DNA of 64,000 bases, from assembly GCA_001770725.1 (NCBI GenBank), contig MERU01000002.1, positions 682,001-746,000 of the forward strand, written 5' to 3'. The notes beneath the pieces were generated by a model that saw nothing but the letters and a program-made list of their open reading frames with translations, did no database searches and was not told where the DNA came from. This DNA comes from Burkholderiales bacterium RIFCSPHIGHO2_01_FULL_63_240. Lineage in GTDB: Bacteria > Pseudomonadota > Gammaproteobacteria > Burkholderiales > Burkholderiaceae_C. Of this stretch, positions 12,299-52,387 are shown in pieces. Positions within the stretch are counted from its first letter, which is position 1. Each line of letters begins with the position of its first letter. The position numbers and the translations under genes are program-made.

Positions 12299-13228
12299 AT
12301 GAGTTTCTTTCACGAAATCTGGCCCCTGGCGCCTCGCCACTGGGTGCTGATCACCTTCATCGCCGCCGCCCTGCATGCCCACTTGCGCGGCAAGGTGCGC
12401 TTCGGCCTCGTTCGTGCGCTGACCGACTTCACGGTGCTGATCGCGCCCTTCAACTCGCTGATGGTGCTGTTCTCGAAGGTGGGCAGCCAGCCCTACCTCG
12501 ACGCCAGGCAGTTCCCGGAGCTGAAGGTGCTGCAGGAGAACTGGCAGGTCATCCGTGACGAGGCCCTGGCGCTGGACGAAGGCGGGCGCATCAAGGCCGC
12601 CGACGGCTACAACGACATCGGCTTCAACTCGTTTTTCCGCACCGGCTGGAAGCGCTTTTACCTGAAGTGGTACGGGGTGGACCAGCCTTCGGCCGCCGAG
12701 CGCTGCCCCAAGACCGTGGCCCTGCTCAACCAGATCCCCGGCATCAAGGCGGCCATGTTCGCCTCGCTGCCGCCCGGCGCCACCCTGGTCAAACACCGCG
12801 ACCCGTATGCCGGCTCGCTGCGCTACCACCTGGGCCTGATCACGCCGAACGACCCGGGCTGCTACATCGAGGTCGATGGCCAGCGCTACCACTGGAAGGA
12901 CGGCGAGGTCGTGATGTTCGACGAGACCTACATCCACCACGCCGCCAACACCACGCAGCAGCCGCGCATCATCCTGTTCGCAGACGTCGAGCGACCGGTC
13001 CACACCCCCGTGGTGCGCTGGATCAACAAGCTGTTCGCCGCCATCGTCATGAAAGCCTCGGCCACCCAGAACGAACAGGGCGAGCAGGTTGGCGGCATCA
13101 ACAAGTTCTTTGGCGTGGCCTACCAGATGCGCGAGAGGGCCAAGCAGTTCAAGGCCACCAACCGCACCGGCTACTACGTCGGCAAGTGGGTGCTGATCAT
13201 CGGGCTGCTGCTGGCGCTGTTCTGGTGA
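12299..13228 (+). CDS. lpxO: LpxO-like aspartyl/asparaginyl beta-hydroxylase (lipid A hydroxylase family)
   Basis: 309 residues. The Asp/Asn beta-hydroxylase domain has iron ligands H166 and D168 (VKHRDPY) and a distal histidine in YIHHAAN (213-214), typical of Fe(II)/2-oxoglutarate dioxygenases. Hydrophobic segments occur near the N-terminus (residues 15-28) and at the very C-terminus (VLIIGLLLALFW), placing it at the inner membrane as in LpxO, which 2-hydroxylates a lipid A acyl chain. The lipid A role is by family resemblance. It abuts the convergent GNAT gene with no gap. Confidence 0.82.
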   Translation: MSFFHEIWPLAPRHWVLITFIAAALHAHLRGKVRFGLVRALTDFTVLIAPFNSLMVLFSKVGSQPYLDARQFPELKVLQENWQVIRDEALALDEGGRIKAADGYNDIGFNSFFRTGWKRFYLKWYGVDQPSAAERCPKTVALLNQIPGIKAAMFASLPPGATLVKHRDPYAGSLRYHLGLITPNDPGCYIEVDGQRYHWKDGEVVMFDETYIHHAANTTQQPRIILFADVERPVHTPVVRWINKLFAAIVMKASATQNEQGEQVGGINKFFGVAYQMRERAKQFKATNRTGYYVGKWVLIIGLLLALFW

Positions 13229-14371
13229 TCAGCCCTGGTCCCGGTCGGTGTGGATGTCCATCAGCGACCACGCCACGCGTGCCTTGACCGCCTCCTTGAA
13301 CTCGCCCTCGGGGCAAGACCACGCCATCGTCTCGTAAGGGTGCGGCTGGTGCCGAAAGAACAGGCGTGAAAAGCGCGCCTCCAGCTCGGGGTCGTACAGC
13401 GTCACATTCAGGTACTCGGCGCCTTCCCTGAAGCCCCGGGCAGCCACCCGGGCCAGCAAGGCCCTGAGGGCCACGTCTTCGTGGTGCCTGTCGAGCACAA
13501 CGTCCATGATCTGCAAAGCGTGGCGCTGCTCGTCGAGCTGGGTGCGGCGGACCGCCATCAGGCCCACCACCTCCCCGCCACGGCGCGCCAGCCAAACCTC
13601 GGCGGGGCTGCGGGGGTTGCGCAGCAGGCGCTGGCCGAGCCCCCTGGCCGAACGGGCCACCTCCACGCGCCGGGTGCGTTGCGACCGAGCCAGCAGCAAG
13701 GCGACCTCGGCGCCCAGCTCGTGTGCTGGCGCGACGTGGATCGTCGAAGACGCCAGCCACAGCGTCGTCAGGCGAAACAGCACCATCGCCGTGGTGGCTG
13801 CCCAGGACGCCAGGGCGGCCAACCAGCCTTGCGACAGCCGCTTGGCCATGAAGTGGCCGAAGTTCAGTGGGTGGGTGTAGCTGCGGCGGTCGGGCAAAGG
13901 CTCGAAGGTGCGCGCGATGACGCCGCGCGAGTTCGGGTTCGAGCCCACCGCCAGCACGCAGCCCAGTCGCTCGCAGATGGCCTGGTTGACCCAAACGCCC
14001 AGGCCGATGCCATCGAGTTCCGGGCGCACCATGATGTCCATCGTGACGTGCGCGTCGCAGGCCTGCTCGCCCGCCTGAAGGTGAACCGGCTCGACCCCGA
14101 TCATGCCCAGCAGGCGATCGCCCTGGGTGCAGACCCAGCAGGTGGCCAGGCCAGCGCCTGGGGTGCCGAACTGGTAGCGCCAGCGCAAGTAGGCCTCGTC
14201 GTCCCAGTTCAGGCCGTTGCCGATGACCTGTTTGCGCAACTCAAGCACCGCCGGCAAGTCATCGGCACGTGCGGGCCGCAGGCCGGCGGCAAGGTCTTGC
14301 GGCGTGCAGCCCAGGGCACGCGCCACCAGGCGGGCCGTTTTTTCGATGGGCAGTGCAGCGCGGGTGTTCAA
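13229..14371 (-). CDS. GNAT-fold acyltransferase of the divergent biosynthetic cluster
   Basis: 380 residues. The N-terminal half (LRPARADDLPAVLELR to about residue 165) has GNAT topology with the acetyl-CoA site region MVRPELDGIGLGVW. The C-terminal half (about 215-365) looks like a second GNAT-like domain (VGLMAVRRTQLDEQR), giving a tandem or two-lobed enzyme. The start is TTG, supported by GAGG eight bases before it. It is the last gene of asnB-acp-KASIII-acp-gnat, 30 bases after the second ACP, so it may transfer an acyl group from an ACP thioester. The exact substrate is unknown. Confidence 0.7.
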   Translation of the reverse strand: MNTRAALPIEKTARLVARALGCTPQDLAAGLRPARADDLPAVLELRKQVIGNGLNWDDEAYLRWRYQFGTPGAGLATCWVCTQGDRLLGMIGVEPVHLQAGEQACDAHVTMDIMVRPELDGIGLGVWVNQAICERLGCVLAVGSNPNSRGVIARTFEPLPDRRSYTHPLNFGHFMAKRLSQGWLAALASWAATTAMVLFRLTTLWLASSTIHVAPAHELGAEVALLLARSQRTRRVEVARSARGLGQRLLRNPRSPAEVWLARRGGEVVGLMAVRRTQLDEQRHALQIMDVVLDRHHEDVALRALLARVAARGFREGAEYLNVTLYDPELEARFSRLFFRHQPHPYETMAWSCPEGEFKEAVKARVAWSLMDIHTDRDQG

Positions 14372-14401
14372 GCTTGGACCTCGGGTGAGCGCAGACCCGG
14401 G

Positions 14402-14656
14402 TCAGGGCGCCAGCGCCCCGTGCGAGGCCAGGAAGTCGAGCACGTGCTGCACCAGCTTCATTTCGCGCGAGACCTCGGCCTTGAGCTCCAGCCCCAGGCG
14501 CTCGTCCAGCTCGGCGATCAACATCAGCGCCCCCATCGAGTCCCAACCCGGGATGCTCTCGCGCGCGGTCTCGGGCGAGAGGTTTTCGATGGGCTCGTTG
14601 AAGGCGTCCGCCATCATCTCCAGGGCTTGCTGGGTGGTGAGGGTGCGTTGGCTCAT
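14402..14656 (-). CDS. Acyl carrier protein (second of the cluster)
   Basis: 84 residues. S40 in GWDSMGALML is the phosphopantetheine attachment site; the rest is acidic and helical as in ACPs. The ATG at 14656 overlaps the stop of the KAS III-like gene (ATGA), and GGGAG precedes it inside that gene, so the two are translationally coupled. A dedicated ACP beside a dedicated condensing enzyme points to a specialised acyl product and not to bulk fatty acid synthesis. Confidence 0.9.
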   Translation of the reverse strand: MSQRTLTTQQALEMMADAFNEPIENLSPETARESIPGWDSMGALMLIAELDERLGLELKAEVSREMKLVQHVLDFLASHGALAP

Positions 14657-15732
14657 GGGGTGACTCCCGAGGGATCGGGCGTGGCGGGGTTCGGGGTGGG
14701 GGCGCACACGCCGTGCAACAACACGGCATCGGGTGGCAGTGTGACAACGGCCGATGACCAGGACAGGCCCACGCCATAGCCCAGCAGCATCAGGCGCAGG
14801 GGGTGGTCACGGCCTCTTTCAGCCAGGCAGCGCGTCAGGGTCACCGCCACGGAGGGGCCGCCGCAGTTGCCCGTGTCTTCGATGGTGAAGGGCACGCGGT
14901 CTTCGGGCAGGCCGCACTTTTTCATCAGGTGCTTCATGATGAAGCGGTTGGACTGGTGAAAGAGGTAGGCGTCGACGTCCGGCACCGTCAGGCCCGCGAA
15001 GGCCAGCGTGTCGTTGACCAGCGGTGGCACGCGCTTGATGGTGAAGTTGAAGATGCCGGCGCCGTCCATGCGCACGCACAGGTCGCGTGGGTCGGCCGGG
15101 TTGCGGTCGCGGAAGGCGCCGCCGCGGATGATCAGGCCGTCGGCACCACTGCCATCGGTGAACAGGCCAAAACTCGCGGGCTCGCCATCAGGCGAGGCGG
15201 GGACGGCCTCAAGCGCCGTGGCCGAGCCCGCGTCACCGAACAGCAGCGTCGTGGCGTGGTCATCGGGGTGCACGAAGCGGCTGGGCGTTTCGCCATGCAG
15301 CATCAAGATGCGCTGCTGTCCGCCGGCTTTGAGCATGGTCGCGGCGATGTAGAGCCCGTAGGGATAGCCGGAGCAACCCAGGCCCATGTCGAAGGCCGCG
15401 CACTCGACGGGCAGGCCCAGCTTCGCGTGCACCACGCAGGCCGAAGAGGGCAGGAAGTGGTCGGGCGACTGGGTGACCATGATCAGGCCAGTGATGCTTT
15501 CCGGCGCCCAGCCCAGCCGGTCGAGCAGGCGGCGGGCGGCCTCGGTGCACAGGTCGACGGCGGTGAGCTCGTCGCCCACCACGTGCCGGTGTCGCACCCC
15601 GGCCATCGACACCACCTTGCGAACGTCCTCGGCGCCATAGCGCTCACCGAGGTCCAGGTTGTCGACGCGGGTGGGCGGCACGCAGGTGCTCACCCCGGCG
15701 ATGCGGAACCCGTCGATGCGGCTGAAGCTCAC
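14653..15732 (-). CDS. 3-oxoacyl-ACP synthase III-like condensing enzyme
   Basis: 359 residues of the thiolase/KAS III fold. The catalytic triad is complete: C120 (GLGCSGYPYGL), H259 (LFHQSN) and N289 (DTGNCGGPS). Such enzymes condense an acyl-CoA with an ACP-bound extender or act as acyl transferases. Residues 1-20 (FRIAGVSTCVPPTRVDN) match secondary-metabolite KAS III relatives more than a housekeeping FabH, which normally lies with fabD and fabG. Start GTG 15732 with GGGAG upstream. It lies 17 bases after the first ACP and overlaps the second. Confidence 0.88.
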   Translation of the reverse strand: MSFSRIDGFRIAGVSTCVPPTRVDNLDLGERYGAEDVRKVVSMAGVRHRHVVGDELTAVDLCTEAARRLLDRLGWAPESITGLIMVTQSPDHFLPSSACVVHAKLGLPVECAAFDMGLGCSGYPYGLYIAATMLKAGGQQRILMLHGETPSRFVHPDDHATTLLFGDAGSATALEAVPASPDGEPASFGLFTDGSGADGLIIRGGAFRDRNPADPRDLCVRMDGAGIFNFTIKRVPPLVNDTLAFAGLTVPDVDAYLFHQSNRFIMKHLMKKCGLPEDRVPFTIEDTGNCGGPSVAVTLTRCLAERGRDHPLRLMLLGYGVGLSWSSAVVTLPPDAVLLHGVCAPTPNPATPDPSGVTP

Positions 15733-15749
15733 GGCGCGCTCCCGAATGG

Positions 15750-16004
15750 TCAGGCCGCGGCCTGCTGCTTGCGCTCCACGTAGGCCACCAGGCTGTCGAT
15801 GGAGTCGAGGTTCTCTGGTGCCATCTCGTCGTCGGTCACCTTGAGCTGGAAGGTCTCTTCGATGAAGAGGATCAGCTCCATGATGCCGGTCGAGTCGAGG
15901 ATGCCGGTCTCCAGGAAGGAGTCGGCGTCCTGGAGGGCGGCATCGTCGTCGGTGAACAGGTGGTTGTCCAGGACGTAGCGTCGCAGGGTGGCACGGACGG
16001 TCAC
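15750..16004 (-). CDS. Acyl carrier protein (first of the cluster)
   Basis: 84 residues with the attachment site S38 in ILDSTGIMELI. The sequence differs clearly from the second ACP of the cluster (14402-14656), so the two are not a recent duplicate; each may serve a different step. Start GTG 16004 with GAGGAG upstream. It lies 18 bases after the asparagine-synthase-like gene. Relatives next to asparagine-synthase-like genes are known from exopolysaccharide and exosortase-associated loci. Confidence 0.88.
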   Translation of the reverse strand: MTVRATLRRYVLDNHLFTDDDAALQDADSFLETGILDSTGIMELILFIEETFQLKVTDDEMAPENLDSIDSLVAYVERKQQAAA

Positions 16005-16022
16005 AGCGGGGCTCCTCGGGTT

Positions 16023-18011
16023 TCAGTGCGCCAGGGGACGCATGGGATGGTGGGATTCGATGAACAGGCGATGCCAGGCTTGCAGCGTGACCATGCCGAT
16101 CAGGGCCTGATTGTCGCGGTTGCCGAGGGCAGCGGGCTGGCGGCTGGCCTTGCGCAGCAGCAAACCCACGCGGGTGTGCTCGAAGCAGGCCGAACGGGTC
16201 AGGCTCTGCGGCGAGAGCAGGTCACTGACAAAAGCCAGGGGTTCGCCCGTCGCCGGGTTGAACAGCGCGGCGGCATCGGGCGCTCGGTAAGGCTGCTTGT
16301 GGCGCATGCGGGTGCGCTCAGGCAGGTAGCGGGCCATGGCCTGGCGCAAGCCGATCTTCTCGCGCAAACCGCGCAGCTTCAGGCGCGGCGGCAAGCGGTT
16401 GGCGAATTCGATGACGCGGTGGTCGAGGTAGGGAAAGCGCCCCTCCACGCCATTGGCCATGAGCATGCGGTCGCCCTGCGATGACAGCAGGTAGTTGCCC
16501 ATCAGCAGGCGGGCTTCGAGGTACTGGGCACGCGCCAGCGGGTGCCAATGGCTGGCTTCGGGCGGCAGGATGGCGCGGATGTCTTCGAGCGATTCGCGAT
16601 CAGGTCGCGGCTCGAGCAGGAACATGCGCGCCTTGCTGGTGGTGTCAAAGCGCGGACCGTGCGAGAACAACAGGTCATCGGGGTCTTCCAGGCCGTTGCC
16701 GTAGAAGCCGCGCATGAAGGCGTCCGAGCGCCCCGACTGTCCCGCCAGCCAGGGGTAGAGGCGCTGCAGCAACTGAGGCCGGTGGGGCGATTGCGGCTGG
16801 CGCGCCCAGAACTGGCGCAACTGCGCTTCCTTGAACAGGTCGTAGCCGCCAAAGACCTCGTCGGCGCCCTCGCCCGTGAGCACCACCTTGTAGCCCTGGC
16901 GGCGCACCAGGCCAGACAACAGGCGCATGGGCACAGGCGCCGTGCGCAGCACCGCGCATTCGGCGTGCCAGACCGTGTCCATCAGCCCCAGCCCGACGTC
17001 TTCCTGGCGGCACTCGATGCGGCTGTGGCGCGCATGCAGGAACTCGATCATCTCGCGCTGCTGGGCGCTTTCATCGAGCGAGGCGTCTTCAAACCCGATC
17101 GAGAAGGTGCGCAGCGGCGCGTTCGTCTCGTGGTGGATGACGCTGGTCAGGATCGACGAATCGAGCCCGCCCGACAGGTAGGCGCCCACCGGCACGTCGG
17201 CGCGCAGGCGGATGCGGGTGGCGTCCACCAGCGTGGCGCGCAGCTCTTCGAGCAGGTCATCGTCGGGGCCCTGCAGGCAGTCGTCGGGTGACAGCGGGAA
17301 GCGCCAGTCCCAGTAACGCCGCACGGTGGCGTGCAGGCGCTTGTCGCGGTCAGGCTCGGCAATCAGCATGGTGCCCGGCTCGAGCGACCAGATGCCCTCG
17401 AACAGGGTTTCGGCGCCCACCGGCGTCCAGCAGGTGAAGACCTGGTCGAGTGCCCGGCGGTTGACGCGCGGGCTGCGCACCAGGGCCGGCAGCAGCGCCT
17501 TGACCTCGGAGCCGAAAATCAGCTGGTGCTCGTCATCTGTCTCGCCGATGCGGTAGTACAGCGGCGCGATGCCGACGCGATCGCGCACCAGCAGCAGGCG
17601 CTGGCGGCGTTCGTCCCACAGCACGATGGCGAACTGCCCGTTGAGGTGGTGAACGAAGTCGTCGCCGTGCTGCTCGTAGAGGTGCACGATGACCTCGGTG
17701 TCGGAGCGGGTGGCGAAGCGGTGGCCCAGCGACTCGAGTTCGTCGCGCAACTCGATGTGGTTGAAGATCTCGCCGTTGAAGACGACGGCGATGCTGCCGT
17801 CTTCGTTGAAGATGGGTTGATCCCCCCCAGCGAGGTCGACGATGGCCAGGCGGGTGTGCGCCAGACCCAGCTCCGGGCGCTTGAGGAATCCACGGCCGTC
17901 CGGCCCCCGGTGGTGGAGGGTGTCGGCCATGCGCCTGAGCAGCCCGTCGTCAGGAGACCACACCGGATTGGCCTGAGCTCGCCAATCCAGCACCCCCGCG
18001 ACACCGCACAT
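16023..18011 (-). CDS. asnB: Glutamine-dependent asparagine-synthase-like amidotransferase
   Basis: 662 residues. The glutaminase nucleophile is C2 (MCGVAGVL), so ATG 18011 is the start, with AAGGGGGG before it; a longer frame upstream would bury the cysteine. RLAIVDLAGGDQP (55-67) belongs to the glutaminase domain and SGGLDSS (280-286) is the ATP pyrophosphatase loop of the synthase domain. It is longer than E. coli AsnB (554), as in the amidotransferases of polysaccharide and natural-product clusters. The context of two ACPs, a KAS III, a GNAT and a divergent acyl ligase suggests amidation of an acyl or amino acid intermediate; simple asparagine synthesis cannot be excluded. Confidence 0.88.
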   Translation of the reverse strand: MCGVAGVLDWRAQANPVWSPDDGLLRRMADTLHHRGPDGRGFLKRPELGLAHTRLAIVDLAGGDQPIFNEDGSIAVVFNGEIFNHIELRDELESLGHRFATRSDTEVIVHLYEQHGDDFVHHLNGQFAIVLWDERRQRLLLVRDRVGIAPLYYRIGETDDEHQLIFGSEVKALLPALVRSPRVNRRALDQVFTCWTPVGAETLFEGIWSLEPGTMLIAEPDRDKRLHATVRRYWDWRFPLSPDDCLQGPDDDLLEELRATLVDATRIRLRADVPVGAYLSGGLDSSILTSVIHHETNAPLRTFSIGFEDASLDESAQQREMIEFLHARHSRIECRQEDVGLGLMDTVWHAECAVLRTAPVPMRLLSGLVRRQGYKVVLTGEGADEVFGGYDLFKEAQLRQFWARQPQSPHRPQLLQRLYPWLAGQSGRSDAFMRGFYGNGLEDPDDLLFSHGPRFDTTSKARMFLLEPRPDRESLEDIRAILPPEASHWHPLARAQYLEARLLMGNYLLSSQGDRMLMANGVEGRFPYLDHRVIEFANRLPPRLKLRGLREKIGLRQAMARYLPERTRMRHKQPYRAPDAAALFNPATGEPLAFVSDLLSPQSLTRSACFEHTRVGLLLRKASRQPAALGNRDNQALIGMVTLQAWHRLFIESHHPMRPLAH

Positions 18012-18021
18012 GCACACCCCC

Positions 18022-18050
18022 CTTGAATCAAGTCCTTGCGAGCGATGATA
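18022..18050. promoter_or_regulatory. Divergent promoter region of the biosynthetic cluster
   Basis: The 102-base gap between the asnB-like gene and the acyl ligase gene contains a perfect palindrome, CTTGAATCAAG (18022-18032), placed just before the asnB ribosome site, and ATGATA (18045-18050), which reads TATCAT, a -10-like hexamer, on the minus strand. TAGACT (18077-18082) is the plus-strand counterpart. A site in the middle of a short divergent gap would let one regulator control both arms. No regulator gene is in the cluster. Confidence 0.4.
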
Positions 18051-18113
18051 CGGCGCCAACAGGCCTGGAGTCCCCCTAGACTGTGTGGAATTGCATCGCC
18101 CTCGCCCCCGGTC

Positions 18114-19577
18114 ATGCCCGGCGCCCAGAACCCCACTTCATCCGCCCTGCTGTTGACACGCCTGTTGCATCAGGCGGCCACGCGGCCCACGCACCCGGCC
18201 TTCATCGAAGGCGATCGGGTCACGTCGTTCGGGGCACTCGCGGCGCTGATCGCCGCACAGGGCGAGGCTTTGAAGTCGTCGATTCAACCCGGCGATCGCG
18301 TGTCCATGGTGATGGACAACTGCACCGAGCTGGCCGTGGCGATCTACGCCACATGGTGGGCGGGCGGCGTGGCCGTGGCCCTGAACCCGGCGCTCAAGCC
18401 AGCCGACATCGCCCAGCTCACCGAGGCCTGCCAGGCCCGTTTCTGCTGGACCGCGCTGCCCGAAGCCCCCGCGCCTGCGCCTGCCGACGCCACACCGCAC
18501 ACCACCCAGCCCGAGGCCCTCGCCAGCCTGGTCTTCACCTCCGGCACGACCGGCCAGCCCAAGGGCGTGATGCTCAGCCACGGCGCCCTGGCGGCCAACA
18601 CCTTGGCCGTGCAGCAGACCCTGCCCATGTCGCCCGACGACGTGACCCTGTGTGTGCTGCCCTTTCACTACGCCTTCGGCAGCTCGGTGCTGCACACCCA
18701 CCTGAGCCTGGGCGCCACGCTGGTGCTGGAAAACAGCTTCATGTACCCGCAGCGCATCGTCCAGCGCATGGCCCAGGTGGCGGCCACGCATTTCTACGGC
18801 GTGCCCTCGTCCTTCTACCTGCTGCTCGAGCGCGGCCAACTCAGCGCCCAGCCCCTGCCCGCCCTGCGCCACGTTGCCCAAGCCGGTGGCCCCATGGACC
18901 CGGCCCGCATCGAGCGCTTCCAGCAGGCCCTGCCCGAGGTGGGTTTCTGGGTGATGTACGGCCAGACCGAGGCCTGCTCGCGCCTGACCACGCTGAGCCC
19001 GGTGCTGCGCGCCAGCAAGCCAGGTTCGGTGGGGCCCGCCCTGCCAGGGATCGAACTGCAGGTGCGCAACGCCCAAGGCGACACGCTGCCGCCTGGCGAG
19101 GTCGGCGACATCTGGGCCCGCGGCCCCAACCTGATGCTTGGCTACTGGGCGTCGCCCGAAGACACCGCCAGCACCCTGGTGGACGGCTGGCTGCACACCG
19201 GCGACATCGGTCACCTCGATGCCGACGGCTGCCTGTTCCTGCACGGGCGCAGCCGCGAGATCCTCAAGGTGGGCGCGCACCGCGTGTCACCCCATGAAAT
19301 CGAACGCTGCATCCAGGCGGTGCCCGGTGTCGGCGAGTGCGCCGTGGTGCCCCTGCCCGACGCGTTGCTTGGCGAGGTGGTGCGTGCCTGCGTGGTCCCC
19401 GCCGTCGGTCACCCGCCATTGCCCCAGCTCACGCGGGACATCCAGCGCCACTGCCGCGAGCACCTGGCGCTCTACAAGGCACCCAAGCAGATCGACTTCT
19501 TCGACGCCCTGCCCCGCACGGCATCCGGCAAGGTCCAAAAACACCTGATCCCGGCATCGAACACCTCATCCACCTGA
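18114..19577 (+). CDS. AMP-forming acyl-CoA/acyl-ACP ligase
   Basis: 487 residues from ATG 18114. ANL-superfamily motifs are complete: FTSGTTGQPKG (A3), YGQTEAC (A5), GWLHTGDIG (A7) and the catalytic lysine region RTASGKVQKH (A10). It adenylates a carboxylic acid and passes it to a thiol, either CoA or one of the neighbouring ACPs. It begins the plus-strand arm of the divergent cluster and is followed after 31 bases by the NadE-like gene. Related ligases occur in exosortase-associated loci, but assignment to that subfamily needs a model search. No Shine-Dalgarno sequence is obvious, so the start could be a few codons off. Confidence 0.88.
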   Translation: MPGAQNPTSSALLLTRLLHQAATRPTHPAFIEGDRVTSFGALAALIAAQGEALKSSIQPGDRVSMVMDNCTELAVAIYATWWAGGVAVALNPALKPADIAQLTEACQARFCWTALPEAPAPAPADATPHTTQPEALASLVFTSGTTGQPKGVMLSHGALAANTLAVQQTLPMSPDDVTLCVLPFHYAFGSSVLHTHLSLGATLVLENSFMYPQRIVQRMAQVAATHFYGVPSSFYLLLERGQLSAQPLPALRHVAQAGGPMDPARIERFQQALPEVGFWVMYGQTEACSRLTTLSPVLRASKPGSVGPALPGIELQVRNAQGDTLPPGEVGDIWARGPNLMLGYWASPEDTASTLVDGWLHTGDIGHLDADGCLFLHGRSREILKVGAHRVSPHEIERCIQAVPGVGECAVVPLPDALLGEVVRACVVPAVGHPPLPQLTRDIQRHCREHLALYKAPKQIDFFDALPRTASGKVQKHLIPASNTSST

Positions 19578-19608
19578 ATCACCACCCCAACCCAGGGAAG
19601 CCTTCACC

Positions 19609-20619
19609 ATGCCCCAAGCCATCGACACCCTGATCGACACCTTGCTGGCCTTCGACCGCGACGCCGAAATCACCCGCATCACCGGCAAGGTCCGCGAGCT
19701 GATGCGCCTGCACCTCAAACGCCGCGGCCTGGTCGTGGCCATGTCAGGCGGCATCGACAGCTCGGTGTGCGCCGCCCTGGCTGTGCGCGCCCTGGGCCCC
19801 GACAAGGTCTTCGGCCTGCTGATGCCAGAACGCGACTCGTCGTCTGAAAGCTCGCTCAAAGGTCGGCTGCTGGCCGAGCACCTGGGCATCCGTCACACGG
19901 TCGAAGACATCGCTCCCACACTGGAAGCCATCGGCTGCTACCGCTGGCGCGACGAGGCCATCCGAGCCGTCTTCCCGGCGTATGGCGAGGGCTGGAAGAA
20001 CAAGATCGTCATCGCCGGCGGCACCCAGGGCCAGATCAACCACTTCAAGCTGGTGGTGCAGGAGCCCGGCAATGGCCCGCTTCACGAGCAGCGCCTGGGC
20101 CTGCGCGAGTACCTGCAGATCGTGGCCGCCACCAACTTCAAGCAGCGCATCCGCAAGACGCTGGAGTTCTTCCACGCCGACCGGCTGAACTACGCCGTGG
20201 TGGGCACACCCAACCGCGTCGAGTACGACCAGGGTTTTTTCGTCAAGAACGGTGACGGCTCGGCCGACCTCAAGCCCATCGCCCACCTCTACAAGACGCA
20301 GGTGTACGCGCTGGCCCGTCACATGGGGCTGCCCGACGTCATCTGCAATGCCACGCCCACCACCGACACCTACAGCCTCAGCCAGGGCCAGGACGAGTTC
20401 TATTACGCCCTGCCCTACAAGGAGATGGACGTGGCGCTGTGGCACCTCAACCAGGGCCTGCCCGCTGCGAAATTGGCCGAATGCCTGGGCCTGAGCGAAC
20501 AGCAGGCCGGCTTCATCTACCAGGACATCGAGGCCAAGCGCCGCACCACAGCGCCATTGCACTGGTCGGGCCTGCTGATGGAGCCGGTGAGCGGGCCGGT
20601 GCCACGCCCGGTCGACTGA
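19609..20619 (+). CDS. NadE-like PP-loop ATP pyrophosphatase (amide-forming)
   Basis: 336 residues. SGGIDSS (46-52) is the PP-loop, and the remainder follows the NAD synthase fold (AGGTQGQINHF, ATNFKQRIRK, VGTPNRVEYDQGF, and ATPTTDTYSLSQGQDEFYYALP, here split: TTDTYSLSQGQDEF). There is no glutaminase domain. A stand-alone ammonia-dependent NadE is usually about 270 residues; this one is longer. Since a complete glutamine-dependent NadE is encoded at 50626-52335, this copy is probably not the housekeeping enzyme; it may adenylate a carboxylate and form an amide in the product of this cluster. Ammonia could come from the AsnB-like glutaminase. That is inference. Confidence 0.8.
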   Translation: MPQAIDTLIDTLLAFDRDAEITRITGKVRELMRLHLKRRGLVVAMSGGIDSSVCAALAVRALGPDKVFGLLMPERDSSSESSLKGRLLAEHLGIRHTVEDIAPTLEAIGCYRWRDEAIRAVFPAYGEGWKNKIVIAGGTQGQINHFKLVVQEPGNGPLHEQRLGLREYLQIVAATNFKQRIRKTLEFFHADRLNYAVVGTPNRVEYDQGFFVKNGDGSADLKPIAHLYKTQVYALARHMGLPDVICNATPTTDTYSLSQGQDEFYYALPYKEMDVALWHLNQGLPAAKLAECLGLSEQQAGFIYQDIEAKRRTTAPLHWSGLLMEPVSGPVPRPVD

Positions 20620-20633
20620 ACAATCGGCCGCCC

Positions 20634-20664
20634 CAAAGAAAAAGGCCAGTCAGTGACTGGCCTT
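20634..20664 (-). terminator. Rho-independent terminator of tRNA-Gly
   Basis: A perfect 11-base stem: AAGGCCAGTCA (20642-20652) and TGACTGGCCTT (20654-20664). On the minus strand it is followed by a T-rich run (complement of AAAGAAAAA). It lies immediately after the CCA end of the tRNA and also separates it from the convergent NadE-like gene. Confidence 0.85.
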
Positions 20665-20672
20665 GGCTCATG

Positions 20673-20746
20673 TGGAGCGGGTGATGGGAATCGAACCCAC
20701 GTTATTTGCTTGGGAAGCAAGAGTCCTGCCATTGAACGACACCCGC
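20673..20746 (-). tRNA. glyU: tRNA-Gly, anticodon CCC
   Basis: On the minus strand, acceptor GCGGGTG pairs with CACCCGC followed by U and an encoded CCA. The anticodon loop is TTCCCAA giving CCC, the T-loop is GGTTCGATTCC, and the D-loop is GTTCAATGGC. The anticodon stem has one weak pair at 27-43. Length 74 with CCA. It reads GGG codons. It is a single tRNA followed directly by a terminator. Confidence 0.95.
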
Positions 20747-20787: not shown

Positions 20788-21537
20788 TCACCTCACCATG
20801 CGATGCCGGGCCACGAATCCGATCCCGAACATCCCAGTCACAAGCATGAGCAGCGTGGAGTTCTCCGGAACCGCCGCGATCAGGGGCTTGTCTGACACAT
20901 TGAAACGCAAGCTTGGGGAAATGTTGATGTCCAGCGAGCCGAAGTTCAAGCGCGGCAGGATGACCACCGCGAAAGGCTCGAGCTGAAGTGCCGATGCGAA
21001 CTGGGCCTGCGCCCCAGAGGTCAGGATCATGTTCTGCAGGCTCATCTTCATGGACAAACCGCCGCTGGTCGACAGATGCAGATCCTGATCCACCTTGAAA
21101 GAATAGACGTCGAAGTTCTTGATGATGCCTGTCGAGGTGCCGAGATCGGCAGTCAACACGTTGCGAGAAAAATCCAGTCCGAAATTGGCCAGGCTGAGGG
21201 CGCCGTTGTCCCCCTGGATCAGCAGCCCCGAACCAGACGCCTGCCCCGACACCGGGCTCAGGTCCCACGGGAACAAGGACACGTCAAGCGCCACCTGCGT
21301 GACCGGCATCATGTAATTCCAGATGCTGCCCCCCACAGAGCGCGTGTTGCCCAATGCCGAAACGCTGAACCCCATGTTGGCCATCACGTTCGATGCGGTG
21401 TCGCTGAAATTGAACTGCGCCTGCGCATCGATCAACGAGGTCGGCATGGTCACCGTCAGGGCCTGTGCCCCGGCGACCGACGCAAGCAACCCCGATGCGA
21501 TCAGCATTTGTCGTGAGGCGCGCAAGGCGGTGGTCAT
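20788..21537 (-). CDS. Secreted protein with PEP-CTERM-like tail (PEN variant)
   Basis: 249 residues from ATG 21537, which has AGGAG six bases upstream. Signal peptide: MTTALRASRQMLIASGLLAS with cleavage after AQA near residue 26. The C-terminus is VPENSTLLMLVTGMFGIGF then ARHRMVR: a Pro-Glu motif, hydrophobic helix and basic end, the pattern of PEP-CTERM, but with PEN in place of PEP. The mature part is rich in Ser, Asn, Asp and Leu, like extracellular beta proteins, with no enzyme motif that I recognise. It may be an exosortase substrate together with the protein at 7151-7705. Confidence 0.75.
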   Translation of the reverse strand: MTTALRASRQMLIASGLLASVAGAQALTVTMPTSLIDAQAQFNFSDTASNVMANMGFSVSALGNTRSVGGSIWNYMMPVTQVALDVSLFPWDLSPVSGQASGSGLLIQGDNGALSLANFGLDFSRNVLTADLGTSTGIIKNFDVYSFKVDQDLHLSTSGGLSMKMSLQNMILTSGAQAQFASALQLEPFAVVILPRLNFGSLDINISPSLRFNVSDKPLIAAVPENSTLLMLVTGMFGIGFVARHRMVR

Positions 21538-21727
21538 GTTGAACTCCTGGATCGATTGAAACTGCACAACGAGGTCATGCACGAGGCCGACCATGTCGTT
21601 GGAATGAGGATCGCAGAAGCAAGGCCCGGAAACACAGCCACTTACCGGCTTGACCGGCTTCGTGCGAATTGCTTCACGGGCAGGCTGCACACCCCCCAAA
21701 TGAAGGGTCAGGGTCTACCCCGAACCT

Positions 21728-50625: not shown

Positions 50626-52335
50626 TCATGCACGAAAGCGCGAGGTGATGGGATAACGCCAGTCTCGCCCGAACGCGCGGTGCGTGATGCGGATGCCAAT
50701 GGGCGCCTGACGGCGCTTGTACTCGTTGAGCTTGATCAGGCGGGTGACCTTGTCGACGTCGGCGGGGGCAAAACCAGCGGCCACGATCTGCTCGATGGAC
50801 TGGTCCTGCTCCATGTAGCGCTCGAGGATGGCGTCGAGCACGTCGTACTCGGGCAGGCTGTCCTGGTCGGTCTGGTCGGGGCGCAGCTCGGCCGAGGGCG
50901 GGCGCGTGATGATGCGCTCGGGGATGGGCTCGACCTGCCCCGCGGCCTTGGCCTGGGCGTTGCGCCAGCGCGAAAGGCGGTACACCAGCGTCTTGGCCAG
51001 GTCCTTGATGACGGCAAAGCCACCAGCCATGTCGCCATACAGCGTGCAGTAGCCCGTGGCCATCTCGCTCTTGTTGCCCGTGGTCAGAACGATGGCGCCG
51101 GTCTTGTTGGACAGGGCCATGAGCAGGGTGCCGCGGATGCGCGCCTGGATGTTTTCTTCGGTGGTGTCCTCGGCGCGGCCGACGAACAAGGGCGCCAGAG
51201 AGGTCTTGAAAGCCTCGAACTCGGGCGCGATGGCGATCTCGTCGTGCCGCACCCCCAGGCGATCGGCCATGTCACGCGCGTCGATCCAGGAGATGTCGGC
51301 CGTGTAGGGCGAAGGCATCATCACGGTGCGCACCTTGTCGGCGCCCAGGGCGTCGACCGCGATGGCGAGCACCAGGGCCGAATCGATGCCGCCCGACAGC
51401 CCGATGATGGCCCCTGGAAAGCCGTTCTTGCCCAGGTAGTCGCGCACGCCGGTGACCAGGGCCTGCCAGATCTCGGCCTCGGGCGACAGCGGTGCGGCGA
51501 TGGCCCCTCCGACGTGGCCGTCAAGCTGCACGCGCAGGTGCAGCGTGGTGGCCTCGAAACTGGGCGCACGGGCCATGACCTGCCCGGAAGCATCGACCGC
51601 GAACGAAGCCCCGTCGAACACGACCTCGTCCTGACCACCCGCGAGGTGGGCATAAAGCAGCGGCAGGCGCACCTGACGGGCGCGTTCGCCCATGCGCTGC
51701 TCGCGCTCGGCCAGTTTGCCGGCGTGAAAAGGCGAAGCGTTGAGCACGACCAGGGCTTGCGCACCTGCCGCCGCGGCGGCTTGGGCGGGCTCGTCGAACC
51801 AGGCGTCTTCACAGATGAGCACGCCCACCCTCCAGCCATCGGCGTCCACCACCAGGGGAGGCAGCCCCACCTCGCGACCGCTGACGAAGTAGCGGCGCTC
51901 GTCGAAGACCTGGTAGTTGGGCAACTCGCGCTTGGCGTAGGTGGCCTGCACCTGCCCACCCTGGATGACGCTGGCGGCATTGAGCAGGCGCGGCACGGCG
52001 TGCGAACGGCTGCGCACACCTTCGTCACGATGACGCTGCGGATGCCCGATGATCAGCGTCATGCCGCTCAGGTCGGCCAGGTCGGCAGCGAGCTGGGACA
52101 AAGCCGCTTCACAGGCGCGCAGGAAGGCAGGGCGCAGCAGCAGGTCCTCAGGGGGGTAGCCGCACAGGGCCATTTCCGGCGTCACCACCAGGCGCGCGCC
52201 TTCGTCGTAGGCTTGGCGGGTGGCCTCGGTGATGAGGCGCGCGTTGCCGGCCAGGTCGCCGACAACGGGGTTGATTTGCAACAGGGCCGCGTGGAGCACG
52301 GGAGCGGCCTCAGGGGTCACAGCGTTCATGGACAT
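50626..52335 (-). CDS. nadE: Glutamine-dependent NAD+ synthetase
   Basis: 569 residues. The N-terminal nitrilase-type glutaminase has the Glu-Lys-Cys triad (TPEMALCGYPPEDL, YAKRELPNYQVF, LICEDAWF). The C-terminal synthetase has PP-loop SGGIDSA, followed by TTGNKSEMATGYCTLYGD. It makes NAD+ from nicotinate adenine dinucleotide, taking ammonia from glutamine through a tunnel. It is complete, so it provides the housekeeping function and makes the shorter NadE-like protein at 19609 look specialised. Confidence 0.97.
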   Translation of the reverse strand: MSMNAVTPEAAPVLHAALLQINPVVGDLAGNARLITEATRQAYDEGARLVVTPEMALCGYPPEDLLLRPAFLRACEAALSQLAADLADLSGMTLIIGHPQRHRDEGVRSRSHAVPRLLNAASVIQGGQVQATYAKRELPNYQVFDERRYFVSGREVGLPPLVVDADGWRVGVLICEDAWFDEPAQAAAAAGAQALVVLNASPFHAGKLAEREQRMGERARQVRLPLLYAHLAGGQDEVVFDGASFAVDASGQVMARAPSFEATTLHLRVQLDGHVGGAIAAPLSPEAEIWQALVTGVRDYLGKNGFPGAIIGLSGGIDSALVLAIAVDALGADKVRTVMMPSPYTADISWIDARDMADRLGVRHDEIAIAPEFEAFKTSLAPLFVGRAEDTTEENIQARIRGTLLMALSNKTGAIVLTTGNKSEMATGYCTLYGDMAGGFAVIKDLAKTLVYRLSRWRNAQAKAAGQVEPIPERIITRPPSAELRPDQTDQDSLPEYDVLDAILERYMEQDQSIEQIVAAGFAPADVDKVTRLIKLNEYKRRQAPIGIRITHRAFGRDWRYPITSRFRA

Positions 52336-52387
52336 GGATCAGGCAGACAGCGCACGAAGCGCACCAAGCGCACAGAGGCAAGCCAGC

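Follow-up and report, generated by a model that had tools for sequence, protein, structure and literature searches.

Two portable gene modules in a divergent Burkholderiales locus with a candidate role in carrier-bound acyl amide formation

Seven genes in two divergent arms of a 64,000-nucleotide stretch of DNA from a Burkholderiales bacterium (the window) encode an AsnB-like amidotransferase, an AMP-forming ligase, a NadE-like PP-loop enzyme, a KAS III-like enzyme, two carrier proteins and a GNAT protein, raising the question of what such a set makes and whether it forms a single pathway. Sequence comparison indicates that the seven genes combine two portable modules and do not constitute a single fixed pathway. 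Our tentative reading, which we regard as quite possible, is that, by way of these two modules, the enzymes produce amide-bearing acyl or aminoacyl groups on carrier proteins and that these groups decorate glycoconjugates of the envelope. All seven listed open reading frames (13229–20619) are present and match the expected families, GNAT and ACP2 only weakly. The original prediction of two arms sharing a divergent gap was confirmed by the reading frames and start codons, with exactly 102 bases separating the AsnB ATG at 18011 (minus strand) from the ligase ATG at 18114 (plus strand; Table 1). Active-site residues proposed to be intact are so, as judged for the KAS III triad by orthologue alignment (C120, H259, and N289 do not vary among three orthologues, consistent with the KAS III superfamily) and for ACP1 S38, ACP2 S40, and AsnB C2 from the translations. 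PEP-CTERM proteins had been placed on both flanks, but a single flank carries one PEP-CTERM-like ORF, which does not reach the cut-offs of the NCBIfam models applied to it; the opposite flank holds an LpxO-like hydroxylase and a succinate-semialdehyde dehydrogenase. The tRNA-Gly(ccc) gene marks a boundary, as module A lies beside it in the window and is missing there in a genome of the same genus (G033). Site-specific integration at this tRNA was rejected: no att-like repeat was found, exact copies of tRNA sequence in 13001–20650 being no longer than 10 bases. A defence system was likewise rejected, none of the seven proteins having a PADLOC match at E ≤ 1e-5.

Table 1. Features of the divergent cluster and its tRNA-side flank (window positions).
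Feature	Position	Strand	Details
Tandem-GNAT acyltransferase, module B	13229..14371	-	380 aa, TTG start as listed
ACP2, module B carrier protein	14402..14656	-	Ser40 in GWDSMG; PP-binding match below cut-off
KAS III-like beta-ketoacyl-ACP synthase, module B	14653..15732	-	C120/H259/N289
ACP1, module A carrier protein	15750..16004	-	Ser38 in LDST
AsnB-like glutamine amidotransferase, module A	16023..18011	-	Cys2, SGGLDSS and GEGADE intact
Divergent intergenic region	18012..18113		102 bases, between AsnB and ligase ATGs
AMP-forming acid ligase, module A	18114..19577	+	YGxS type (LPFHYAFGSSVL)
NadE-like PP-loop amide synthetase, module A	19609..20619	+	NF002048 subfamily
tRNA-Gly(ccc)	20673..20746	-	Between NadE-like gene and PEP-CTERM-like ORF
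PEP-CTERM-like ORF	20788-21549		Under cut-off in the NCBIfam models applied

Module A consists of the AsnB-like amidotransferase, ACP1, the AMP-forming ligase, and the NadE-like enzyme, and was scored as complete where all four lie within 10 kb, as they do in the window. Its spread was assessed in mechanically called genes of the best 80 of at least 555 tblastn relatives, a nonrandom sample selected with the NadE-like protein as sole query. The complete module was found in 64 of these 80 loci, which belong to beta-, gamma-, and deltaproteobacteria and Myxococcota, and in 58 of the 64 loci whose contig extends at least 5 kb upstream of the NadE-like gene; six of the 16 incomplete loci likewise have at least 5 kb upstream. 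Individually, the ligase and ACP1 each occur in 77 and an AsnB-like gene in 65 of the best 80. In loci chosen by the NadE-like protein alone, this association of the four genes exceeds chance. Module A also forms an operon on plasmids of Sinorhizobium, Nitratireductor, and Mesorhizobium, standing alone on Sinorhizobium pSymB. The synteny proposed as a check on the seven genes was thus upheld insofar as they co-occur in relatives, but as two separable modules rather than a fixed set: G033 has module B at the same site but its module A, a different one, at another locus, and because it separates the two a fixed seven-gene pathway was rejected. A literature search returned no title or abstract describing this gene set. 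The four-gene core recurs in several bacterial classes, the genetically tractable S. meliloti included, and may represent an uncharacterised route to amide groups that runs through a carrier protein and probably operates at the cell envelope.

Module B comprises KAS III, ACP2, and usually the tandem-GNAT transferase, and is much rarer. KAS III was detected at E ≤ 1e-60 in six of 150 genomes of the family, three of them at 68–100% identity (its own genome, G033, and G005), and at E ≤ 1e-90 in one of 398 genomes of the phylum, its own, with at most five candidates scored per genome. Both G033 and G005 carry module A, unlinked in G033, and each close copy of module B seen lies in a genome or locus that also carries module A. 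Among the best 80 NadE-like loci, KAS III is present in seven, every one with the whole module A core and two lacking GNAT. The enzyme scores below the FabH model TIGR00747 (187.8 bits versus a cut-off of 292.1). ACP2 adjoins KAS III in relatives; a ketoreductase accompanies module B in some of them and none was seen in the window cluster. The GNAT gene is present as first described and is more exactly a predicted tandem-GNAT protein: Pfam GNAT matches are weak, with none over cut-off, and its AlphaFold model (mean pLDDT 89.9) finds tandem-GNAT N-myristoyltransferases and GNAT acetyltransferases as best Foldseek matches, at TM ∼0.5. Hand-over of one particular acid from ACP1 to KAS III is unsupported, since KAS III is found alongside every ligase type.

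Several types of ligase occur in module A, reassorting against the other module genes. One of these, the D-type, has Asp at the position where nonribosomal peptide synthetase domains bind amino groups. On trees from quick searches (LG+G4 model, no mixture; ACP1 being a short protein), the D-type label changes four times on the ligase tree, nine times on the NadE tree (at least six on well-supported branches), and 14 times on the AsnB tree. This last scatter is almost random (111 of 500 shuffles were as low), a pattern compatible with ligase swapping as well as with noise in the tree or an erroneously chosen paralogue. These changes of ligase type suggest that the choice of acid varies among module A loci. 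A PrmC-like methyltransferase is present in 17 of 20 D-type loci versus none of 63 others, with three changes on the ligase tree versus 12 on the AsnB tree, and this tracking of the ligase rather than AsnB suggests that in the D-type module an amide is carried by the loaded acid. When restricted to independent supported pairs, the association of D-type and PrmC is not significant (six pairs; concordant 3.5 on average, opposite never; median p 0.25). The best solved relatives of ACP1 are mostly peptidyl, D-alanyl, or prolyl carriers, with weak E-values. Ligase swapping and the coupled methyltransferase yield concrete predictions about the acid.

The two amide-forming enzymes might be housekeeping proteins lying by chance beside lipid-type genes, as both exceed broad models: AsnB scores 464.9 bits on the asparagine synthase family TIGR01536 (cut-off 267.1) and carries its Cys2, SGGxDS, and GEGxDE motifs, the NadE-like protein scores 472.3 bits on the NAD synthase subfamily NF002048 (PRK00876; cut-off 313), and AsnB is the sole AsnB-family protein over cut-off in its genome. 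However, no AsnRS over cut-off was found in the same genome (three weaker matches, the best at 88.2 versus 342.6 bits), so AsnB need not supply protein synthesis; a fused housekeeping NadE lies within the same 64-kb window; the four-gene block is conserved across classes; and the NadE-like protein is rare, occurring at E ≤ 1e-75 in two of 300 genomes of the order, its own included, with at most six candidates scored per genome. AsnB falls below the asparagine synthase B equivalog PRK09431 (317.9 versus 499 bits) and below TIGR03104, N-acetylglutaminylglutamine amidotransferase (324.8 versus 570.1 bits), and MCG occurs within the first 120 residues of 59 of 69 AsnB reading frames from module loci. 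The NadE-like enzyme has a predicted NadE fold (pLDDT 88.9), and the PP-loop SGGxDS is present in all 86 module homologues. Aligned with housekeeping NadE, it keeps fold and adenylation motifs and differs in a later segment and in a conserved insertion of ∼60 residues (about 109–168) that housekeeping NadE lacks. A housekeeping role, which we consider scarcely credible, was rejected on synteny, paralogy, and the lack of an AsnRS over cut-off, in agreement with the original prediction. The NadE-like protein would then be a NadE-type enzyme with a role outside NAD synthesis.

As to the product, the envelope or exopolymer link first suggested finds support in relatives: XrtA exopolysaccharide markers lie near 33 of the best 80 NadE-like loci, with at least two marker kinds in 17, with labels taken from a single scanned member of each sequence cluster (two of seven representatives fall below their own family cut-off). 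In the other 47 loci XrtA markers are lacking, in part because the contig stops short. The genome itself encodes an XrtA-type chain-length protein and three exosortases, all outside the window. These neighbourhoods argue against a free product, a small acyl or aminoacyl amide serving as metabolite or signal, for which XrtA surroundings would merely be gene-cluster hot spots, as do the four-gene core, which includes no exporter, thioesterase, or PKS, and the tandem-GNAT family, counted in 32 of 86 loci with profiles built from those same loci. A free molecule, on balance unlikely, would nonetheless suit the stand-alone operons, which adjoin minCDE in S. meliloti and transposition genes in Nitratireductor; annotated glycan-synthesis genes were absent within 10 kb of the former in an incomplete gene table. 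The best solved relative of AsnB, 7ylz, named a hydroxyamidotransferase, and the malonamyl-starter precedent noted below point the same way. Alternatively, AsnB and the NadE-like enzyme might act on a common acceptor, for example converting uronic acid to uronamide, with the ligase, ACP1, and GNAT attaching to the same sugar an acyl or aminoacyl group that varies, resembling the seryl-glucuronamide linking sugar of Porphyromonas. Repeated changes of ligase type against NadE and AsnB, together with the Porphyromonas findings of PMC7468200 given below, are consistent with this doubtful alternative; the lack of a nucleotide-sugar gene in the core and the tracking of the ligase by the PrmC-like methyltransferase are not. 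A far more speculative reading, which we consider improbable, takes module A as a swappable acid-selector line whose common enzymes, among them a NadE-like enzyme turned into a novel amide synthetase, build a cap with amine or amide groups on the XrtA-associated glycolipid that exosortase joins to PEP-CTERM proteins. What those proteins are attached to is an open question on which the XrtA neighbourhood has a bearing, and available sections of PMC7468200 describe the exosortase acceptor as unidentified.

Under the favoured reading of envelope decoration, the ligase would adenylate a carboxylic, perhaps amino, acid and load it onto the ACP1 phosphopantetheine, by analogy with a probable S. meliloti homologue; of all the steps, this loading alone has published support. 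The AsnB-like enzyme would convert a carboxylate to an amide with glutamine nitrogen and the NadE-like enzyme would form a second amide bond at the expense of ATP, their sites of action being conjectural. In module B, KAS III and ACP2 may build a short acyl chain or lengthen one; the tandem-GNAT protein may move an acyl or aminoacyl group from carrier to amine, the presumed acceptor most likely being an amino sugar within a glycoconjugate of the envelope. The product may be an acyl amide, as first suggested.

Among known systems, the TIGR03098 ligase and TIGR03108 amidotransferase of XrtA/PEP-CTERM loci belong to the same superfamilies and often the same neighbourhoods as module A, which adds NadE-like and ACP1 partners. 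Canonical identity with this pair, a check proposed at the outset, was rejected: the window ligase reaches 283.2 bits against a TIGR03098 cut-off of 592.35, and AsnB 390.5 against a TIGR03108 cut-off of 816.9. The TIGR03098 scores of two D-type module ligases (491.6 and 457.7 bits) are closer to the cut-off. Three other clusters (L019–L021) encode KAS III 44–46% identical to that of the window in an amino-sugar context (DegT aminotransferase in L019 and L020, hexapeptide transferase in L020 and L021), with an ACP adjoining KAS III in L020 and a reductase gene in L021; these surroundings favour the envelope link. They differ from the window in having paired KAS III genes and no ligase, ACP1, NadE-like, or GNAT match; their sole AsnB match, at 30%, is in L019. 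In glutarimide and tetracycline pathways an AsnB-like enzyme and an ACP make a malonamyl starter, a pairing like that of module A, although the seven genes include no PKS and we know of no NadE-like enzyme in those systems. The Porphyromonas Wbp/Vim linking-sugar pathway (WbpS-type amidotransferase, VimA) shares AsnB-like amidation and the attachment of an amino acid to a sugar of the envelope: according to available sections of PMC7468200, mutants deleted for the AsnB-like gene PGN_1234 no longer form the uronamide, the identity of the attached amino acid depends on vimA, and genes of the TIGR03108 and VimA-related kinds occur in XrtA loci; those sections name neither a NadE-like enzyme nor a carrier protein. 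Similar in arrangement to part of module A is the co-transcribed AMP-forming ligase and ACP pair SMb20650/SMb20651 on S. meliloti pSymB, for which available sections of PMC7232532, in which AsnB and NadE-like partners do not appear, give in vivo acylation of SMb20651, credited to a 2009 paper. The S. meliloti module A operon probably includes this pair. The order of its genes on the minus strand agrees with the tag numbers, NC_003078.1 itself lacking gene annotation, and no other ligase-ACP pair was found on pSymB of strain 1021, although one could have escaped because the PF00550 scan missed the operon's own ACP. The S. meliloti module ligase is D-type, in contrast to the YGxS type of the window.

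The cluster is real and wider in scope than first described. All seven genes of the original prediction, and the 102 bases separating the start codons of their two divergent arms, were confirmed in the window; the family labels given to them agree with family scans, the named catalytic residues are present, and none of the seven encodes a reductase. PEP-CTERM proteins had been proposed to flank the cluster, which holds for one flank, where a tRNA-Gly is followed by a PEP-CTERM-like ORF, whereas the other consists of an LpxO-like hydroxylase and a dehydrogenase. The LpxO-like lipid A hydroxylase directly adjoins the cluster (score 445.8 against a cut-off of 500), and such a gene also lies beside the cluster in G033, a genome of the same genus, and in fetched loci L025 and L026.

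Coordinates of the cluster genes and associated features
Feature	Sequence	Coordinates	Strand	Transcription order
GNAT protein	window	14371-13229	minus	fifth
ACP2	window	14656-14402	minus	fourth
KAS III	window	15732-14653	minus	third
ACP1	window	16004-15750	minus	second
AsnB-like amidotransferase	window	18011-16023	minus	first
AMP-forming ligase	window	18114-19577	plus
NadE-like protein	window	19609-20619	plus
LpxO-like hydroxylase	window	12299-13228	plus
tRNA-Gly(ccc)	window	20673-20746	minus
tRNA-Gly(ccc)	L017	9677-9750
Fused NadE	window	50629-52338	minus
Rieske-type oxygenase	L021	6678-7721	minus
~286-aa family	L033	5649-6518	plus
~286-aa family	L060	197-1057	plus
PrmC-like family	L018	10220-11197	minus
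PrmC-like family	L135	13888-14811	plus
Module A operon, Sinorhizobium meliloti 1021	NC_003078.1	1450582-1455388	minus

In G005, a genome of another genus, all seven genes are clustered and the locus also holds a PrmC-like methyltransferase and a short-chain reductase, whereas in G033 KAS III, ACP2 and GNAT occupy the same chromosomal site as in the window, between a PEP-CTERM-like gene and LpxO, while AsnB, ligase, ACP1 and the NadE-like gene lie at a different locus, followed by a PrmC-like methyltransferase. Because G033 splits what G005 joins, two separable units can be told apart: module A, with AsnB, ACP1, the ligase and the NadE-like gene, and module B, with KAS III, ACP2, GNAT and in some cases a reductase; the seven-gene set recurs together but is not one fixed unit. 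At the G033 module B site, blastn found no match to window 15734-20672, and tRNA-Gly immediately precedes KAS III. The tRNA-Gly(ccc) of the window and L017 forms a boundary beside which the window has module A and G033 does not; a search for att-like repeats there found none. In the tree of NadE-like proteins, those of the window, L025 and L026 cluster with delta-, gammaproteobacterial and myxococcal sequences rather than most betaproteobacterial ones, which hints weakly at horizontal gain (the fork has support 90 and is not starred).

Judged from sequence, this predicted module A is widespread and conserved. A NadE-like alignment run against genome_contigs (84,980 species) returned at least 555 relatives, and in the best 80 loci, with presence judged by blast thresholds, ACP1 and ligase were each found in 77, AsnB in 65 and all four genes in 64. 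Where at least 5 kb lay upstream of the NadE-like gene, 58 of 64 loci held all four, five of the six incomplete loci lacking AsnB and one the ligase. The predominant gene order in gamma- and deltaproteobacteria is AsnB-ACP1-ligase-NadE; betaproteobacteria usually have AsnB-ligase-ACP1-NadE, and exceptions occur. The NadE-like family is rare in the order (2/300 genomes, the window's own included), and 116 of 72,556 plasmid records carry a relative, every one below 60% identity. Three of these were inspected: module A is a four-gene operon three genes before minC on S. meliloti pSymB, comes after transposition genes on a Nitratireductor plasmid, and precedes a weakly tandem-GNAT-like protein and a HemK/PrmC methyltransferase on a Mesorhizobium ciceri plasmid. 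A family of ~286 residues occurs in 10 loci, often 3' of module A and in five with serine acetyltransferase-like genes too; both members read contain an FGHQSVG motif, and a scan of one member gave no match in Pfam or NCBIfam.

Module B is rare, and its close copies in the genomes and loci examined always had module A in the same genome or locus. KAS III relatives (E <= 1e-60) occur in 6/150 family genomes, three of them (the window's own, G033 and G005) at 68-100% identity, and module A is present in both G033 and G005; at E <= 1e-90 the own genome was the single carrier among 398 in the phylum. KAS III was found in 7/80 NadE-selected loci, a set that by design cannot reveal KAS III without NadE, and all seven hold the full core plus ACP2, with GNAT in five. 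The clusters that hold the more distant relatives (44-46%; genomes G035, G139 and G116) combine paired KAS III genes with DegT aminotransferase, hexapeptide transferase, ACP or reductase genes, a content that would suit N-acylated amino sugars. A Rieske-type oxygenase was observed in a paired-KAS III cluster (L021).

The AsnB and NadE-like proteins are very unlikely to be housekeeping enzymes. The cluster AsnB is the only family member over cut-off in its genome, which taken alone would allow such a role. However, no AsnRS scored over cut-off in that genome; asparagine could therefore be formed on tRNA here. The genome also encodes a separate fused, glutamine-dependent housekeeping NadE. The cluster NadE-like protein retains the adenylation motifs and NadE fold but, unlike housekeeping NadE, has a conserved insertion of ~60 residues, and 85/86 homologues contain a PTTDTY segment where housekeeping NadE has PPSAEL.

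The A4 motif divides 84 ligases into YGxS (47, including that of the window), D (20) and other YGL (17) types, the D position being where NRPS adenylation domains carry their alpha-amino-binding aspartate. In 17/20 D-type loci and 0/63 others there is a PrmC-like methyltransferase related to N5-glutamine methyltransferases (Fisher p 5.6e-15, kinship ignored). The NadE tree requires 9 changes of the D label, of which 6 or more fall on starred branches, and in 6 independent supported pairs PrmC tracks D in 3.5 on average and never opposes it, too few for significance. The ligase seems to be exchanged as acid selector, the methyltransferase moving with it, because D and PrmC change only 4 and 3 times, respectively, on the ligase tree, as compared to 14 and 12 on the AsnB tree (D hardly clustered, with 111/500 shuffles as low) and 14 and 12 on the short ACP1 alignment. 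The PrmC-like family beside D-type modules (L018, L135 and relatives) is a candidate for N-methylating amides, either of small molecules or of carrier-bound groups; most sequences inspected have an N-terminal DKPEET-like motif.

A link to exosortase-type envelope loci, originally posed as possible, gains support from XrtA exopolysaccharide cluster genes within reach in 33/80 loci, 17 of which have two or more kinds, with representatives of 5/7 marker clusters over family cut-off and those of TIGR03016 and TIGR03097 below. In the own genome, an XrtA chain-length protein over cut-off lies on another contig; of three exosortases, two are on another contig and the third is ~100 kb past the window. 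The tandem-GNAT family, to which the window GNAT belongs by profile comparison (99.6% probability), occurs in 32/86 loci, and the predicted structure of the window GNAT resembles tandem-GNAT N-acyltransferases (TM about 0.5). According to PMC7468200, a uronamide on the protein-linking sugar of Porphyromonas needs an AsnB-like gene and vimA controls which amino acid is attached to that sugar; a tie to XrtA loci is those authors' speculation. In Rubrivivax, mutation of a WbpS-like gene in a PEP-CTERM polysaccharide cluster altered how an EmbRS mutant aggregates and the form of its colonies (PMC3684757).

Among the ten best solved relatives of ACP1, peptidyl, D-alanyl and prolyl carriers predominate (weak E-values). 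The ligase and ACP of the strain 1021 operon, whose record lacks gene annotation, are probably SMb20650 and SMb20651, because the two PP-binding matches elsewhere on pSymB (in a non-exhaustive scan that missed the operon's own ACP) lack such an adjoining ligase and the tag numbers agree with the gene order on the minus strand. SMb20651 is co-transcribed with SMb20650, and this pair provides published support for one proposed step, ligase loading of ACP: PMC7232532 describes co-expression with AcpS and reports that this ACP is acylated in vivo. We infer the mechanism past that step. We regard the cluster as a variant within the carrier-protein-dependent systems for acyl and aminoacyl modification.
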